From positions 1 through 38,498 of IMG/VR virus record IMGVR_UViG_3300024500_000058: 38,498 nt of DNA, one strand, 5' to 3'. Shown piece after piece: positions 1,352-38,498 of the stretch. The notes under the pieces are model-generated. The model was not told the origin of the DNA, searched no databases, and saw only the letters and a list, made by a program, of their open reading frames with translations. The stretch is from a virus. How positions within the stretch are numbered: the stretch's first letter is position 1; every line of letters starts with the position of its first letter. The position numbers were made by a program, and so were the translations under genes.

Positions 1352-2602
1352 ATGACCCAAGCAGCTGGAACGCTGAACCTGAGATACGCACAAGGGCAGG
1401 TATTCAGCAGCCGCAAGCGCTTCAGAGTGCTAGTAGCGGGTAGACGTTTCGGAAAAAGCTACCTGTCGTGTATCGAATTGCTGCGTGGGGCGATCGAAAG
1501 GCCGGGCGAAACATTCTTTTATGCCGCCCCTACATACCGGATGGCGAAAGACATTGCCTGGAAGGTAATGAAAAAGCTGGTCCCGAAAGCCTGGATCAAG
1601 TCGAAGAACGAGACAGACCTGAAGATCGAGCTGGTGAACGGCAGCACGATCGAACTGAAGGGCACTGAAAACGCCATGGCCCTACGCGGCCGCAGTTTGG
1701 CTGGCGTGGTGCTGGACGAAGCCGCCTTCATGTCCAGCGAAGTCTGGTTCGAGGTGATCCGCCCCGCTTTAGCGGACAAACAGGGTTGGGCACTTTTCAT
1801 CTCCACCCCGGACGGCACGGCTAGCTGGTTCTACGAACTCTGGCAATACGCGGACAGCGGAGATTCCGACTGGAGCCGCTGGCAATTCACAACGATTGAC
1901 GGCGACAACGTCCCCCCGGAGGAAATCGAAGCCGCCCGAGGCCAGTTAGATGCTCGAACATTCCGCCAAGAATTTGAAGCCAGCTTCGAAAACCTCTCGG
2001 GCCTGGTGGCAGTCAGCTTCAGCGACGAAAACATCAGCACCGAAGCCGAAGACATCAGCGTCCTACCCATCCTGCTTGGAGTGGACTTCAACGTGGATCC
2101 AATGTCTGGCATCTGCGCCGTCCGCAAAGACGACACCCTCTACGTTTTCGACGAAATCATGCTGACTGGTGGAGCTACCACCTGGGATTTCGCCGAAGAA
2201 GTCACCCGCCGCTTTGGCGTGGAGCGCCGCGTCATTGCGTGCCCGGACCCCACCGGCGGCGCCCGCAAAACATCCGGCGTGGGACTCACCGACCACAACA
2301 TCTTGCGCCGCAGCGGTTTCAACGTCTCCAGCCCCAAAGCCCCCTGGAAAATCCGCGACAAGATCACCTGCGTCAACACCGCCCTCCTCGACGCAACTGG
2401 AGCCCGCCGCACCTTCATTCACCCCCGCTGCAAGGAACTAATCAAATCTCTCCGCACCTTGACCTACGCCCCCGGCACAGGACTCCCCAACAAAAACCTT
2501 GGCGTTGACCACGCCTTCGACGCCTTTGGGTACATGTGCCTACAACAATTCAACCTGGCGAAGCACGGCGTCCTCGGCCAAACCTCTTACCGCCTTTATT
2601 AA
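1352..2602 (+). CDS. terL: Terminase large subunit
   Basis: The 416-residue packaging motor drives DNA into the prohead with an N-terminal ATPase and cuts concatemers with a C-terminal nuclease. Walker A G-R-R-F-G-K-S is at residues 30-36, and Walker B V-V-L-D-E-A-A-F is near residue 120. The RNase H-like nuclease starts with L-G-V-D-F-N-V-D-P near residue 245, with a further acidic D-H-A-F-D-A-F motif near the C-terminus. Length is typical for the family. ATG at 1352 gives a normal N-terminus ahead of Walker A. The gene follows the repeat-rich intergenic region described above. Confidence 0.95.
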   Translation: MTQAAGTLNLRYAQGQVFSSRKRFRVLVAGRRFGKSYLSCIELLRGAIERPGETFFYAAPTYRMAKDIAWKVMKKLVPKAWIKSKNETDLKIELVNGSTIELKGTENAMALRGRSLAGVVLDEAAFMSSEVWFEVIRPALADKQGWALFISTPDGTASWFYELWQYADSGDSDWSRWQFTTIDGDNVPPEEIEAARGQLDARTFRQEFEASFENLSGLVAVSFSDENISTEAEDISVLPILLGVDFNVDPMSGICAVRKDDTLYVFDEIMLTGGATTWDFAEEVTRRFGVERRVIACPDPTGGARKTSGVGLTDHNILRRSGFNVSSPKAPWKIRDKITCVNTALLDATGARRTFIHPRCKELIKSLRTLTYAPGTGLPNKNLGVDHAFDAFGYMCLQQFNLAKHGVLGQTSYRLY

Positions 2603-2990: not shown

Positions 2991-3331
2991 TGGCTCTCAC
3001 CATCTCACGCGGCACCAATCTGGTGGAACACCACCAATCCACCCCGTTGACTGCGGTCAATCAAACCTTCGAAGTCCACGCCGACAGCAGCGAATTTACC
3101 TTCGCGGCCGTCGTAACAGGCGGCGCCAACTTCACACTGTCCTTCGAAGCCAACTACAACGGCGGCAACACCTGGTTCGAGCTAGATACCAGCAAAAATA
3201 TCAACTCCAACGGCCAATACGCCTACTTTTACACCGGCAAACCCGCAAACAAAGTGCGGATGCGTATTGCCTCAATCAGTTCTGGCACGCCTAGTGTTGT
3301 GCCGATCGTTGCTGTCGCTTACCACGGCTAA
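2990..3331 (+). CDS. Beta-rich virion-associated protein, paralog of the gene at 24524
   Basis: The 113-residue protein is rich in T, S, N and F and predicted beta. It shares a clear pattern with the 107-residue protein at 24524-24847: a G-x-N-x-x-L-x-F-E motif, then a short segment with F-x-L-D, then N-G-x-Y-x-Y, then V-R-x-R-x-x-S-x-S-x-G-T-P-x-V near the end. A decoration or fibre-associated beta sandwich is plausible given its place in the structural cluster. No named family is recognised. It is coupled to the preceding gene by a one-base overlap. Confidence 0.7.
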   Translation: MALTISRGTNLVEHHQSTPLTAVNQTFEVHADSSEFTFAAVVTGGANFTLSFEANYNGGNTWFELDTSKNINSNGQYAYFYTGKPANKVRMRIASISSGTPSVVPIVAVAYHG

Positions 3332-4917: not shown

Positions 4918-6390
4918 ATGACCTACTCAGTACCCGGCCAATTCCCCACCCACATCGTCGCCACGACGTATCAAAACGGCGGCGACAGCCCATTTATCCG
5001 CACTGCTGCAGTGCTGGACATGATGAAGGGCTGGGAAATCATGAAAGCCGTGACACGCGGCACCGAATACCTACGCGAGAACAGCGAAGCCTTCCTCCCC
5101 CTGGAACCCCGAGAGGACTACCGGGCATACATGAGCCGGGTCAACCGGGCTGTCTTTTCTCCTTACACGCAACGCTTGATTCGAGCTGCTGCAGGCTTGA
5201 TCCTGCGCAAACCCATCGCCCTTGAAGGCGACCCGTACTGGCGCGAAGTATTCGCCCGCGACGTTGACGGCCAGGGTTCGGATTTGGACGAGTATGCCCG
5301 CCGCCTATTGATCTGCAGCCTGACCTACGGCCAAGCCCACACGCTGGTCGATTATCCAGCCCAGACCGAAATCCGCAGCCTGGCCGAAGAACGCGCCCTG
5401 GGCCGCCGCCCGTACTGGGTCGAAATCGACCCTTACAACATCTACGGCTGGCGCCTCGACCGCGACGCGGCCTACGGCACGTTGACGCAGGTCCGCATCT
5501 ACGAAAAAGCGATTGTGCCCGAGGGCCGCTTCGGCGAAAAAACCTACGAACAAATCCGTGTCATCGAGCCCGGCCGCTACGAGGTCTACCGCCAAAAGCA
5601 AGCCATCAAACCCCTCGGCCCCGGCTTCCTGGAACCCAACGCCCAAAGCGGCGACTACGAACTGGTCGATGCTGGCACCTACAGCCTGAACCAGATCCCA
5701 CTGGTTACCACCTACTCCAACAAGGTGGACAACCTGATCAGCCGCCCGCCGCTGATCGACATTGCATACCTCAACCTCGCCCATTTCCAACGCCAAGCCG
5801 ACCTAATCCACAGCCTCCACATCGCATCTCAGCCGATGCTTGTCCTTGAAGGCTGGGACGACCAGACCAAGGACATGTCGGTCAGCGTGAACTACGCAAT
5901 GGCCACTGCCCCAGGCAACAAGGTCTATTACGTGGAGCCCGCGTCTAGCGCTTTCGAAGCACAAAGCAACGAAATCAAGGAACTGCAGCAACAAATGGCC
6001 ACGCTCGGCATCAGCACTCTGAGCCAGCAGAAATTTGTTGCCGAGTCTGCCGACGCCCGCCGCCTCGACCGCGTCGACACCAACTCAATGCTGGCCTCGG
6101 TCAGCCTTGACCTCGAACAAACCCTTCAAAAGGCTTTCGATTTAGCCGGCGCGTATCTCGGCATCGAGCCCCCTGAAGTGAGCATCAGCCGCGACTTCGA
6201 CATCGACCGCCTGATCGGCCAAGACGTCACCGCCATCACCGCCCTCTTCGACAAAGGCGTCATCACGCTGGAGGAAGTCCGCGCCATCCTCACCCAAGGC
6301 GAAATCCTCCCCTCGATGGAACTCGGCAGCCTCCCCACCGAAGAACCGGGCGAGCTGGAATACATGGATGACGAAGAAGAAACCGTTTAA
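4918..6390 (+). CDS. Portal protein (DUF4055-like)
   Basis: The 490-residue protein matches the DUF4055/SPP1-type portal pattern: an N-terminal helical W-E-I-M-K-A-V-T-R-G-T-E-Y-L segment, Y-R-A-Y-M-S-R-V near residue 65, a middle domain with an E-I-D-P-Y-N-I-Y-G-W segment, and a long C-terminal helical stem (residues about 340-430). The C-terminus is acidic. The portal forms the dodecameric ring through which DNA enters the head. ATG at 4918 is 5 bases after the preceding stop. It is followed by a short gap and then scaffold and capsid genes. Confidence 0.88.
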   Translation: MTYSVPGQFPTHIVATTYQNGGDSPFIRTAAVLDMMKGWEIMKAVTRGTEYLRENSEAFLPLEPREDYRAYMSRVNRAVFSPYTQRLIRAAAGLILRKPIALEGDPYWREVFARDVDGQGSDLDEYARRLLICSLTYGQAHTLVDYPAQTEIRSLAEERALGRRPYWVEIDPYNIYGWRLDRDAAYGTLTQVRIYEKAIVPEGRFGEKTYEQIRVIEPGRYEVYRQKQAIKPLGPGFLEPNAQSGDYELVDAGTYSLNQIPLVTTYSNKVDNLISRPPLIDIAYLNLAHFQRQADLIHSLHIASQPMLVLEGWDDQTKDMSVSVNYAMATAPGNKVYYVEPASSAFEAQSNEIKELQQQMATLGISTLSQQKFVAESADARRLDRVDTNSMLASVSLDLEQTLQKAFDLAGAYLGIEPPEVSISRDFDIDRLIGQDVTAITALFDKGVITLEEVRAILTQGEILPSMELGSLPTEEPGELEYMDDEEETV

Positions 6391-7394: not shown

Positions 7395-8474
7395 ATGGCC
7401 GCACCATTTCAGAACTATTCCGGCGGTGTCCTTCTGGCGGACATCGTCAAGCGCAATAACCTCAGCACCTATGTGTCTGAGGCGATCAAAGAGCGCAGCC
7501 TCTTCCTGAAGAGCGGCGCTGTTGTCCGCAACAGCCTGCTGGATGCCCGCGAAGGTGGCACCCGCATCCAGGTGCCCGAGTTCAACCCCGTATCTCCCAC
7601 CGAGGAGATCATGAACGGCACCGCCACCTGGGGCACCAGCACCGCTGGCTACCTGACCCCCCAGAAGATCGGCACCGGCACCCAAATCGCCACCATCTGC
7701 CATCGCGGTTTTGCGTATGCAGTGGACGACGTTGCGATGCTCGCCGCTGGGGAAGACCCCATGCTGCACATCCGCAACCAGCTGGCCGACGCCATCAACA
7801 AGCTGAACAGCGCCCGCCTGTTCTCCCAGCTTGCTGGTCTGTTCGGTTCTGCCCTGTCTGCCAACAGCCTGGACCTGGGTGTGGCCGCCGCTTCCGGCGC
7901 CGCCGAAGCCAACTTCCTGACTGGCGCAGCCGTTGCCCGCGCCCGCAACCTGCTGGGTGAGCGCGGCGAAGAGCTGGACACCCTGGTGGTGCACCCCACC
8001 GTGGGCTTTTACCTGTATCAGGTCGGCCTGCTGACCTTCTCCACCTCCGCACTGGCCGCTTCCGGCTCTGTGGTGTGGGGCGGCGGCGGTGTCGGCGTGA
8101 ACGCCCGCATGATCGGCGAGTTCGCCGGCTGCCGCGTGATCATCGACCCTCAGGTCAACACCGTGGTGCCCGGTACCGCCGGCCACCAGCGTGAGTTCTA
8201 CTGCTATCTGACCAAGTCGGGCACCATCCTTGAGGGTGTGCAGCAGGACCTCCGCATCGAAGCCGACCGCAACATCCTGTCCAAGCAGGACGTGCTCTCC
8301 GTCGATTACCACACCGCCTATCACATCATGGGCACCAAGTGGAACGACGCCGGCGACAACCCCACCAACGGTGGTCTCGCCACCAGCGGCAACTGGGCTG
8401 CCACCTACGACATCGACCTGATCCCCCTGGTTCAGCTCACCGTCAACAGCCCCCTCGACACCACCACCATCTGA
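7395..8474 (+). CDS. Major capsid protein
   Basis: The 359-residue coat protein lies between scaffold and connector genes and is followed by a strong terminator, as expected for the most expressed virion gene. Visible features: a P-F-Q-N-Y-S-G-G start, G-G-T-R-I-Q-V-P-E-F near residue 55, W-G-T-S-T-A-G-Y-L-T near residue 80 before a long spine-like helix (residues about 115-150), V-V-H-P-T near residue 195, and a beta-rich C-terminus. This fits an HK97-fold coat protein without a long N-terminal delta domain, in keeping with the separate scaffold. Confidence 0.9.
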   Translation: MAAPFQNYSGGVLLADIVKRNNLSTYVSEAIKERSLFLKSGAVVRNSLLDAREGGTRIQVPEFNPVSPTEEIMNGTATWGTSTAGYLTPQKIGTGTQIATICHRGFAYAVDDVAMLAAGEDPMLHIRNQLADAINKLNSARLFSQLAGLFGSALSANSLDLGVAAASGAAEANFLTGAAVARARNLLGERGEELDTLVVHPTVGFYLYQVGLLTFSTSALAASGSVVWGGGGVGVNARMIGEFAGCRVIIDPQVNTVVPGTAGHQREFYCYLTKSGTILEGVQQDLRIEADRNILSKQDVLSVDYHTAYHIMGTKWNDAGDNPTNGGLATSGNWAATYDIDLIPLVQLTVNSPLDTTTI

Positions 8475-36682: not shown

Positions 36683-36729
36683 TGTGATACTTGATTGAAG
36701 CGGCCAGCGGTTGCTGACCTGTCCCTAGA

Positions 36730-36769
36730 GTTACACATGACCAGCAGGGTGTCAAGCTGGTCGTGTAAC
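36730..36769 (-). promoter_or_regulatory. Early promoter/operator: long dyad holding TTGACA
   Basis: Arms GTTACACatGACCAGC (36730-36745) and GCTGGTCGTGTAAC (36756-36769) are complementary apart from a 2-base bulge. The loop holds TTGACA on the minus strand (36755-36750), a perfect -35 hexamer. Seventeen bases further the minus strand reads AACTCT, a poor -10. The next gene starts about 45 bases beyond. A regulated promoter is likely, although the -10 is weak. Confidence 0.55.
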
Positions 36770-36901
36770 ACTCTGCAATGTGGCAGTGGCGGCCTGGAGT
36801 CGCTACCTTTGTGCTCCGTCCTTTCTTTGAGGGGAACGGGTAGTCCGCAGTAGCCCGGCTGCGGTGAGGCTGGCACCTCGGGAGGACCAGCCACCGGGCA
36901 C
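36770..36901 (-). other. Structured non-coding stretch with two adjacent hairpins
   Basis: No gene seen. Right after the stop of the gene at 36902 lies a nested stem GGCTGG / CCAGCC with inner CCTC / GAGG (36868-36892). Three bases on comes CCGCAG / CTGCGG (36845-36864). No T-run follows, so this is either an atypical terminator or a structured RNA leader. CTGGAGT and a pyrimidine-rich stretch lie nearer the promoter. Confidence 0.4.
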
Positions 36902-37246
36902 CTACTCCGGCACACCAAGTGCTGCTGGCTCGTACTGCGTAAGAACGCACACGTCAGCGCCCTGTCGCAGAGCAGTCCCAACGATGTACTGGAACTGCTT
37001 CTGGGCGTCGTCCGACTCCTCGATCTGGTACTCCTCGACCTCGTAGGCCAAGCCCTTGCGGTACCAGGAGATCCGCACCACGGCCAGCAGCTCATAAGGG
37101 ATGTCCCCAACCGTGTACCCCAGGGTGGGCTTCCTGGGACGTTTCGGCTGGGGCGGTTCCGGCTTAGCCACGGGATCTCTCCAAAACAGCCACCCGGCAA
37201 CCCGGAGCAGCCCTAGGAAAAAGTTAGGCGGGCTGAAGTAGTTCAT
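36902..37246 (-). CDS. Hypothetical protein with N-terminal membrane-like segment, 114 aa
   Basis: The product starts M-N-Y-F-S-P-P-N-F-F-L-G-L-L-R-V-A-G-W-L-F (hydrophobic). A P/K-rich linker (residues about 28-40) leads to an alpha/beta part with L-L-A-V-V-R-I-S-W-Y-R-K-G and Y-E-V-E-E-Y-Q-I-E. Its ATG uses the last base of the upstream stop (TGATG). No family recognised. Confidence 0.62.
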   Translation of the reverse strand: MNYFSPPNFFLGLLRVAGWLFWRDPVAKPEPPQPKRPRKPTLGYTVGDIPYELLAVVRISWYRKGLAYEVEEYQIEESDDAQKQFQYIVGTALRQGADVCVLTQYEPAALGVPE

Positions 37247-38484
37247 CAGTCCCAGAAAGCCGAAGCATCGGCCTGGAGCCGCTGAATTTCCTCAGACGAG
37301 CGTTCCTCCCTTGGGGATACATCCAAAAGCTGTCCCACCGAACCAGATCCCTTGGTATGGCTGGCTTCTTTGCCGGGACAGCCCAAATCGGTGTCCCGGG
37401 GGGTCGTGCCAGTTGAAGGATCGTCAAGGGGGGCCGGGACACCCTCTACCCCCTGTCCCGGGTCACTTTCCAGTCGTACCAATGGATCTACCTTACCGGG
37501 ACACACATTTAAAGGCTTTTCACGCGAGGAAATTGCTTGGAAGAGAGGAGTAGCTGGAGCGCCATTATTCCCATCCGTCTGACCTGAGACACAAATAAGA
37601 CCTCGGGAGACCAAGCGCTGGGTCGCCTTCTTGATTCCGGCGACGCTGCCACCGCACAAGGGATCCGCAGCGAGGTCTGAACGGCTCACAGAGCGCGGGT
37701 AAGCCGCACGTATGCGCTGGAGCACCCGATCGACCACAGAGGCCGGACTGGCGCTCTCTGTGTCCAGCTCGACGTAGTCCGCCAGCGAGAAGGTCAGATC
37801 GTTCTCCAGCTTCATGAGGAGCTTGCTGCCGTCCCGTCCGGCCCTGGACTTCTCGACGGTGATGAGACGAGCGTTGGCGCCGGTCTGCTCCAGTTGCTTC
37901 TTATCGGGCCGCTTAAGCCCCCATACCTCGTCCACAGCATCCCGGATAGCGGTGCTGCCCCGGAACCCGCCAGTCTTGTTGGCGTGGTGAATCAACAGAA
38001 TGGTGCAGGCCGGGAAAGTCCTGCCGTTGTTGTTGGCCAGCCAGTAGATGGGGCTCGCAAACTCTTTCTTGTTTTCGTCGAAGGCCGAGCCCCGGCTGCA
38101 GCCAGTGATCGAGTCAATGATCACCAGCTTGGGACGATGCTTCTCGATCAGCTTGGTGAAACGGAAATACCAATTCAGATCCCACCCCATCACCACCGTC
38201 ACGGGGTCATCAGCGCGAAACTCCAGATCACGCAGCTGCTGCTGAACCTGCACTTCGCTCTGGTCACCGTTAAGGATCAACACAGGACCTTTCTGCACTG
38301 GGACGAGATCACCCCGCACCGAGAACGGAATCCCCCGCGCCACATGCTTGGCAATCGTCCAGGCCGACATTGATTTGCCATCACCGCCAGCGCCGTGAAT
38401 CATCACCGTGCCCGGGCAAGGCAGCAGATCAGGAATCAGGTACTCAAACTTGAGATCTTTTTCCAGCAGTTTGCTCATGGCCAT
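37246..38484 (-). CDS. RepA/AAA_25-type ATPase (replicative helicase-like) with C-terminal winged helix
   Basis: The 412-residue RecA-fold ATPase has Walker A G-A-G-G-D-G-K-S at residues 31-38, Walker B K-L-V-I-I-D-S-I near residue 122 and a sensor segment L-L-I-H-H-A-N-K-T-G-G-F-R-G-S near residue 163, typical of RepA-like hexameric helicases. Residues about 245-300 look like a winged helix (V-D-R-V-L-Q-R-I-R-A-A, S-D-L-A-A-D). Residues about 315-400 are disordered, and that DNA holds a regular inverted-repeat array. Start at ATG 38484; ATG 38478 also possible. It probably loads or acts as helicase at the phage origin. Confidence 0.82.
   Translation of the reverse strand: MAMSKLLEKDLKFEYLIPDLLPCPGTVMIHGAGGDGKSMSAWTIAKHVARGIPFSVRGDLVPVQKGPVLILNGDQSEVQVQQQLRDLEFRADDPVTVVMGWDLNWYFRFTKLIEKHRPKLVIIDSITGCSRGSAFDENKKEFASPIYWLANNNGRTFPACTILLIHHANKTGGFRGSTAIRDAVDEVWGLKRPDKKQLEQTGANARLITVEKSRAGRDGSKLLMKLENDLTFSLADYVELDTESASPASVVDRVLQRIRAAYPRSVSRSDLAADPLCGGSVAGIKKATQRLVSRGLICVSGQTDGNNGAPATPLFQAISSREKPLNVCPGKVDPLVRLESDPGQGVEGVPAPLDDPSTGTTPRDTDLGCPGKEASHTKGSGSVGQLLDVSPREERSSEEIQRLQADASAFWD
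37331..37503. repeat. Three inverted pairs TGTCCC/GGGACA, candidate iteron origin
   Basis: TGTCCC begins at 37331, 37392 and 37454; GGGACA begins at 37375, 37436 and 37498. In every pair the distance between starts is exactly 44 bases, and pairs repeat every 61-62 bases. Five of the six sites extend to the 8-mer CCGGGACA or its complement. The spacers are unrelated in sequence. The sites fall in all three codon phases of the RepA-like gene, so the DNA itself seems conserved. An AT-rich stretch (37504-37520) follows the last site. This resembles iterons of a replication origin within an initiator gene, as in lambda gene O. Confidence 0.6.
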
Positions 38485-38498
38485 CTCATCGTCTTGCT

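Follow-up and report, generated by a model that had tools for sequence, protein, structure and literature searches.

The window analysed here, the whole 38,498-nucleotide stretch of the viral record IMGVR_UViG_3300024500_000058, ends inside a minus-strand open reading frame (37246..38498) that stays open beyond the contig end at 38498. An earlier note had called this gene RepA-like and had placed a repeat array inside it; the array is indeed intragenic, but the gene is more correctly a 5′-truncated primase-helicase gene on the minus strand. Only its 3′ part is present: an AAA_25 domain is found in the window frame, and the Prim-Pol and PriCT-2 part is absent, as the gene runs off the contig (38484-38498). 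In relatives with more upstream DNA the full gene has about 800 codons, and its product carries Prim-Pol, PriCT_2 and AAA_25 domains (Pfam) followed by a C-terminal winged helix. PriCT_2 (PF08707) scores 58 bits, Prim-Pol (PF09250) is marginal at 23.0 bits against a cut-off of 22.8, and AAA_25, the sole ATPase family scoring over its cut-off, is presumed to be the helicase. Divergent genes for an SSB-like protein and a PD-(D/E)XK exonuclease lie upstream of the primase-helicase gene and a family A DNA polymerase gene lies downstream; the terminase large subunit is encoded at window positions 1352-2602. A genome-based search for hosts found no relative in bacterial or archaeal contigs.

AlphaFold models predict a winged helix with its recognition helix at residues 281-293, then a disordered linker encoded by the array DNA, and a final helix at residues 397-411. 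Folded alone, the winged-helix domain reaches a core pLDDT of 77-87, and its Foldseek neighbours are winged helices, including one in a Brucella phage primase/polymerase.

The array consists of six TGTCCC/GGGACA sites in alternating orientation (Table 1). The site coordinates bear out the original description of three pairs, each with exactly 44 bases between its starts, that recur with a period of 61 and 62 bases. Five of the six sites share the extended form TGTCCCGG, and no other 8-mer of the window is as clustered as CCGGGACA, which has 5 copies within 131 bp, at spacings of 42 and 19-20 bp, against 3 for the runner-up. In synonymous-codon shuffles of the gene, six hexamers never occurred in the last 450 nt (0/5000). 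Counted in gene sense the sites start at 981, 1025, 1043, 1087, 1104 and 1148, so that, as had been noticed, all three codon phases are used. The accompanying statement that no recent duplication explains the repeats needs a qualification: the outer 50-bp units of the array are inverted and partly similar copies of each other, and an old inverted duplication is therefore possible.

Another TGTCCC, at 36720, had been noted next to the early promoter dyad. We reject it as part of the system, as it is a single hexamer outside any array and is missing from most relatives, and the window in its entirety has no excess of TGTCCC (16 copies against 18.8 expected). Near this lone hexamer, in the early region, a 10-bp centre separates the 19-bp halves of an imperfect inverted repeat (79%) at 36727-36774, which is possibly a promoter or operator dyad separate from the array. 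Elsewhere in the window, GGCACC occurs six times in 126 bp (7557-7682) within DNA that codes for the major head protein, which perhaps reflects codon usage or a protein repeat.

Besides the sites, each 50-bp arm of the array contains a second element, A.A.CC-N9-ACTGG, at a position that is equal in all site types. At least one exact match to it is present in 103 of 159 related genes, and none in the 700 nt upstream. Adjoining the array is the AT-rich stretch that had been reported earlier: the first 20 bp outside it on one side have a family mean of 63% AT, against a background of about 38%. Beside the array, conservation also extends to the nucleotide level at CTCGCGTGA, where codon identity at codons 320-321 is 5.1 and 3.6 times that expected.

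Table 1. Features of the array and of the gene that contains it (window positions).
Feature	Position	Strand	Basis
3′ part of the primase-helicase gene, cut by the contig end (about 800 codons in relatives)	37246..38498	-	
Winged-helix codons (residues 250-317), proposed site reader	37534..37737	-	AlphaFold models, Foldseek matches
K285 codon, recognition helix, follows site type	37630..37632	-	
Linker codons (residues 320-394, predicted disordered), hosting the array	37303..37527	-	pLDDT about 30
Whole array, two-fold symmetric layout, candidate replication origin	37331..37503	.	sequence
Outer site TGTCCC	37331..37336	+	
Site TGTCCC(GG)	37375..37380	-	
Site TGTCCC(GG)	37392..37397	+	
Site TGTCCC(GG)	37436..37441	-	
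Site TGTCCC(GG)	37454..37459	+	
Outer site TGTCCC(GG)	37498..37503	-	
Second element, one arm, AGATCCCTTGGTATGGCTGG (class-independent; one mismatch to consensus)	37345..37364	+	
Second element, other arm, AGATCCATTGGTACGACTGG	37470..37489	-	
AT-rich array flank, candidate melting region	37504..37521	.	
CTCGCGTGA, nucleotide-level conservation beside the array	37520..37528	-	codon identity

Relatives were chosen by protein similarity alone and comprised the 80 nearest and a more distant set (53-87% across the whole protein). The earlier note had proposed to test whether the hexamers and their 44-base spacing persist in homologous phages while the spacers drift, and this is what we observe: the array occupies the equivalent place in 80 of the 80 nearest relatives, and most of the more distant ones retain it. 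By the tests applied, some distant relatives (L367-L370) showed no array. In its fullest form the array has eight sites, at 0+, 44-, 61+, 71+, 96-, 106-, 123+ and 167-; the positions of each mirror pair sum to 167, and the layout thus has exact two-fold symmetry. The window array corresponds to six of these eight positions, one of them shifted by 1 base. For counting we used 159 distinct genes from the protein-selected loci, with a stretch of the ATPase part of the same genes and shuffled sequences as controls. In 110 of the 159 genes the array region held two or more pairs of one hexamer in mirror positions, compared with 0/159 in the control stretch and 0/159 after shuffling; both exact halves of the layout were found in 81/159, and at least four TGTCC cores in 144/159. 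Array length varies at the centre (111, 161, 173, 194, 206 and 230 bp), and the outer spacings of 44 and 17 remain constant. The changes in centre length of -12, +21 and +33 are near whole helical turns; that of +57 is not. Some of the more distant relatives (L335 and L354) have four to five centre-facing sites per side, in steps of about 10 bp (10-11).

The array is tied to its gene. Ten of ten contigs contained a single array per genome, and a DNA-pattern scan of the viral collection returned 348 array matches (both strands counted), 346 of which adjoin a homologue of the primase-helicase gene; the remaining two are cut or antisense views.

Each site is composed of the TGTCC core and a variable tail that a genome's sites have in common and that varies from lineage to lineage. 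The tail types are CGG, CACC/CACTG, AGCTG/AACTG, TCTTT and CCCCC, plus a rarer AT-rich group; TCTTT and the AT-rich group are less uniform, with outer sites that bear different tails. Residue 285 in the recognition helix varies along with the tail. It is Gly in 15 of 15 TCT arrays and Arg in 11 of 11 CAC arrays, Lys in the CGG and CCC types, and Thr or Arg in AGC. A tree built from ATPase codons only requires at least 18 changes of site type, and among independent pairs on this tree A7 (A at position 7 of the site) goes with R285 in about 7/7 and T6 (T at position 6) with G285 in 5-6/6. Nearest-neighbour agreement in tail type is 0.97-0.98 at residues 265-310, but only 0.55-0.79 across the 245 residues that precede residue 250, and 0.61-0.65 in the gene that follows. 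Judged from these comparisons, site type belongs to the winged helix and the array rather than to the flanks, and we read the recognition domain together with its sites as a cassette that is exchanged by recombination. The concerted changes of site and residue 285 argue for a protein-DNA contact without proving it, since the two parts are neighbours and joint transfer could account for their association in part, or even by itself.

Relatives with a diverged winged helix illustrate how far the site sequence can depart. Three of them (L357, L358 and L362) carry eight copies of TCGGAAAA (YCGGAAAA in L362) in the order +-++--+-, forming four exact mirror pairs, and a fourth (L366) has an array of TTGACAAA with five mirror pairs at one mismatch. 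As these relatives keep the order with another site sequence, the layout outlives the sequence of its sites. Separately, sites resembling GGAACAAA and ordered +-++-- form a partial array in the last 310 nt of the primase-helicase gene of two loci (L343 and L344), probably a further, less clean site type.

On the basis of what is directly observed, namely the array with its symmetry, position and conservation, its occurrence once per genome and the concerted change of sites and winged helix, we consider it likely that the 173-bp array serves as the initiator-binding core of a phage replication origin, with this origin lying within the gene that encodes its initiator. The combination of Prim-Pol/PriCT-2, ATPase and winged helix fits an initiator, and the ATPase/winged-helix protein that the earlier note had named remains the best candidate for the binder, for which there are no binding data. 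In the proposed mechanism the winged helix would bind TGTCC and the type-specific tail at six to eight mirror-ordered sites, and the two arms would recruit copies of the protein that face each other across the centre. The second element of each arm may assist, perhaps via bending or a second protein. The AT-rich DNA just outside the array would then open, and two helicase-primase assemblies, using their own primase and ATPase, would launch forks in both directions. Binding, melting and a bidirectional start are all inferred without experiment.

Not every expectation of an origin was fulfilled. The predicted minimum of cumulative GC skew near 37.4 kb does not exist at the array in the window, and in the window and six longer relatives the skew has no turn at the array and follows the gene strand instead. 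The shortness of the AT-rich flanks (20 bp) also speaks against an origin, as does the lack of an array, by the tests applied, in L367-L370. The role first proposed on the strength of the repeats is thus supported by their conservation but not by the skew, and in the absence of binding or replication-mapping data it is still an inference.

An operator array is the alternative that survives best, improbable as we consider it. In this reading the winged helix or another phage repressor would silence the replication genes at the level of transcription and play no part in starting DNA synthesis. Winged-helix folds are commonest in transcription regulators, weak matches to transcriptional regulators were obtained, and a long array across a transcribed gene could block RNA polymerase. 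However, in full-length relatives the array is located more than 2 kb from the gene start and not over the promoter, it stays in place while the genes downstream differ between relatives, and site type does not vary with the gene that comes next; nor does an operator need exact mirror symmetry.

It is very unlikely that the array functions as an extended hairpin or cruciform of the kind found at the pRN1 and BIP-1 origins, or as an mRNA structure, and not as a set of separate protein sites. The window stretch does fold into one hairpin that pairs the mirror sites (z -1.9 as DNA, -2.4 as RNA), and agreement is slightly higher between mirror sites (0.67) than between the other sites within an array (0.55). 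Yet the type-specific tail is common to non-mirror sites too (0.55, compared with 0.37 between genomes), mirror pairing is absent from the 11-bp spacers (0.31, the level of slid controls), the interior of the arms pairs solely at the invariant second element, and the tandem sites one helical turn apart in L335 and L354 form no hairpins. With pairing outside the sites and the second element at control level, we reject RNA or a cruciform as the main feature. Symmetric multi-site arrays occur in packaging, partition and site-specific recombination systems too, and the binder of the present array has not been shown, but a DNA site for one of these jobs is hardly to be expected inside a primase-helicase gene, away from the terminase genes, with an array type that tracks the DNA-binding domain of the primase-helicase itself.

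Returning to the replication origin, a broader proposal can be advanced only tentatively, as we are slightly inclined to doubt it as a whole. A single gene may constitute a self-contained origin and initiator, in which a two-fold symmetric site set borne by the disordered linker assembles head-to-head copies of the protein and allows replication to start in both directions with no need for a host helicase loader, and phages may trade the recognition domain and array as a specificity cassette, with the layout kept and the site sequence swapped. More than 100 natural matched pairs of a DNA-binding domain and a candidate origin, in one geometry and at least six site types, make both the protein-DNA code and the geometry for loading two replication machines directly testable. 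For a large set of uncultured phages they also predict where the origin should lie and how the phages fall into compatibility groups, and they provide a case of a coding linker shaped by a constraint at the DNA level.

No mirror array was found in 12 isolated phages with distant AAA_25 or PriCT-2 proteins (S-CBS1, S-CBS4, Pam2, pAN, Caulobacter RW, Klebsiella KA2-1, Gordonia Mahdia, Alteromonas ZP6, the Vibrio phages H188 and pYD21-A, Torfinnsbu and Manatee Spring podovirus). Repeats of other kinds were observed in three of them. Pseudomonas phage vB_PstS-pAN has direct repeats CAACACA/CCCAACA at 7716-8005, many at 9-10 bp steps, which immediately follow the gene for a distant PriCT-2 protein and form an iteron-like array outside it. 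Pseudomonas phage Torfinnsbu carries ACAAAGCA in 8-bp steps at ~3237-3260 and 5865-5975, flanking the primase gene on both sides, and Manatee Spring podovirus has six copies of CGCGGAA in ~100 bp (5556-5655), a few hundred bases before a repA-like gene.

It is well known that mobile elements encode fusions of archaeo-eukaryotic primases with helicases and HTH domains (PMC5862659). In the open literature, subscription papers being excluded, we found no report of a mirror-symmetric intragenic array or of its type switching. The parallel drawn at the outset, with the lambda origin inside gene O, stands up as a working analogy. In lambdoid phages, too, the repeats lie in the initiator's own gene with AT-rich DNA adjoining, and the number of O iterons varies between relatives, adding residues to the O protein (PMC7466680; PMC5043065). 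The array likewise lies within the open reading frame (37331-37503 in 37246-38498), in the relatives as well, its status as an origin being inferred. In contrast, the lambda iterons are inverted repeats for O dimers, whereas here the set of sites as a whole is mirror-symmetric. O is neither primase nor helicase and obtains the host helicase via P; the present protein unites Prim-Pol, PriCT_2 and AAA_25 in one chain and thus fails to match an O-type initiator.

The α protein of the satellite phage P4 has an SF3 helicase and a DNA-binding domain of winged-helix fold, and its ori and crr repeats lie outside its gene. It resembles the protein described here in that primase, helicase and a C-terminal DNA-binding domain that reads the origin repeats reside in one polypeptide, its primase being of the Toprim type (PMC4234260). 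The C-terminal winged helix of the primase-helicase, as deduced from AlphaFold, Foldseek and domain order, meets the P4-type feature. A Toprim primase and SF3 helicase are not matched: Pfam gives Prim-Pol/PriCT_2 and AAA_25, and the repeats are within the gene.

Further counterparts are pRN1 ORF904 and phage BIP-1, in which an archaeo-eukaryotic primase, a helicase and a C-terminal winged helix form one protein and the origin is symmetric DNA on the 3′ side of its own gene (PMC4234260). The primase-helicase shares this composition, given its marginal Prim-Pol match. The differences concern the helicase, SF3 in theirs and AAA_25 here, and the origin, which in theirs is an iteron-free stem-loop past the stop codon and in the present case would be an in-frame array of repeated sites without conserved spacer pairing. 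By analogy, the array system may work like lambda ori, P4 α and pRN1 ORF904; by the features tested it is a member of none of these systems and combines features of all three.
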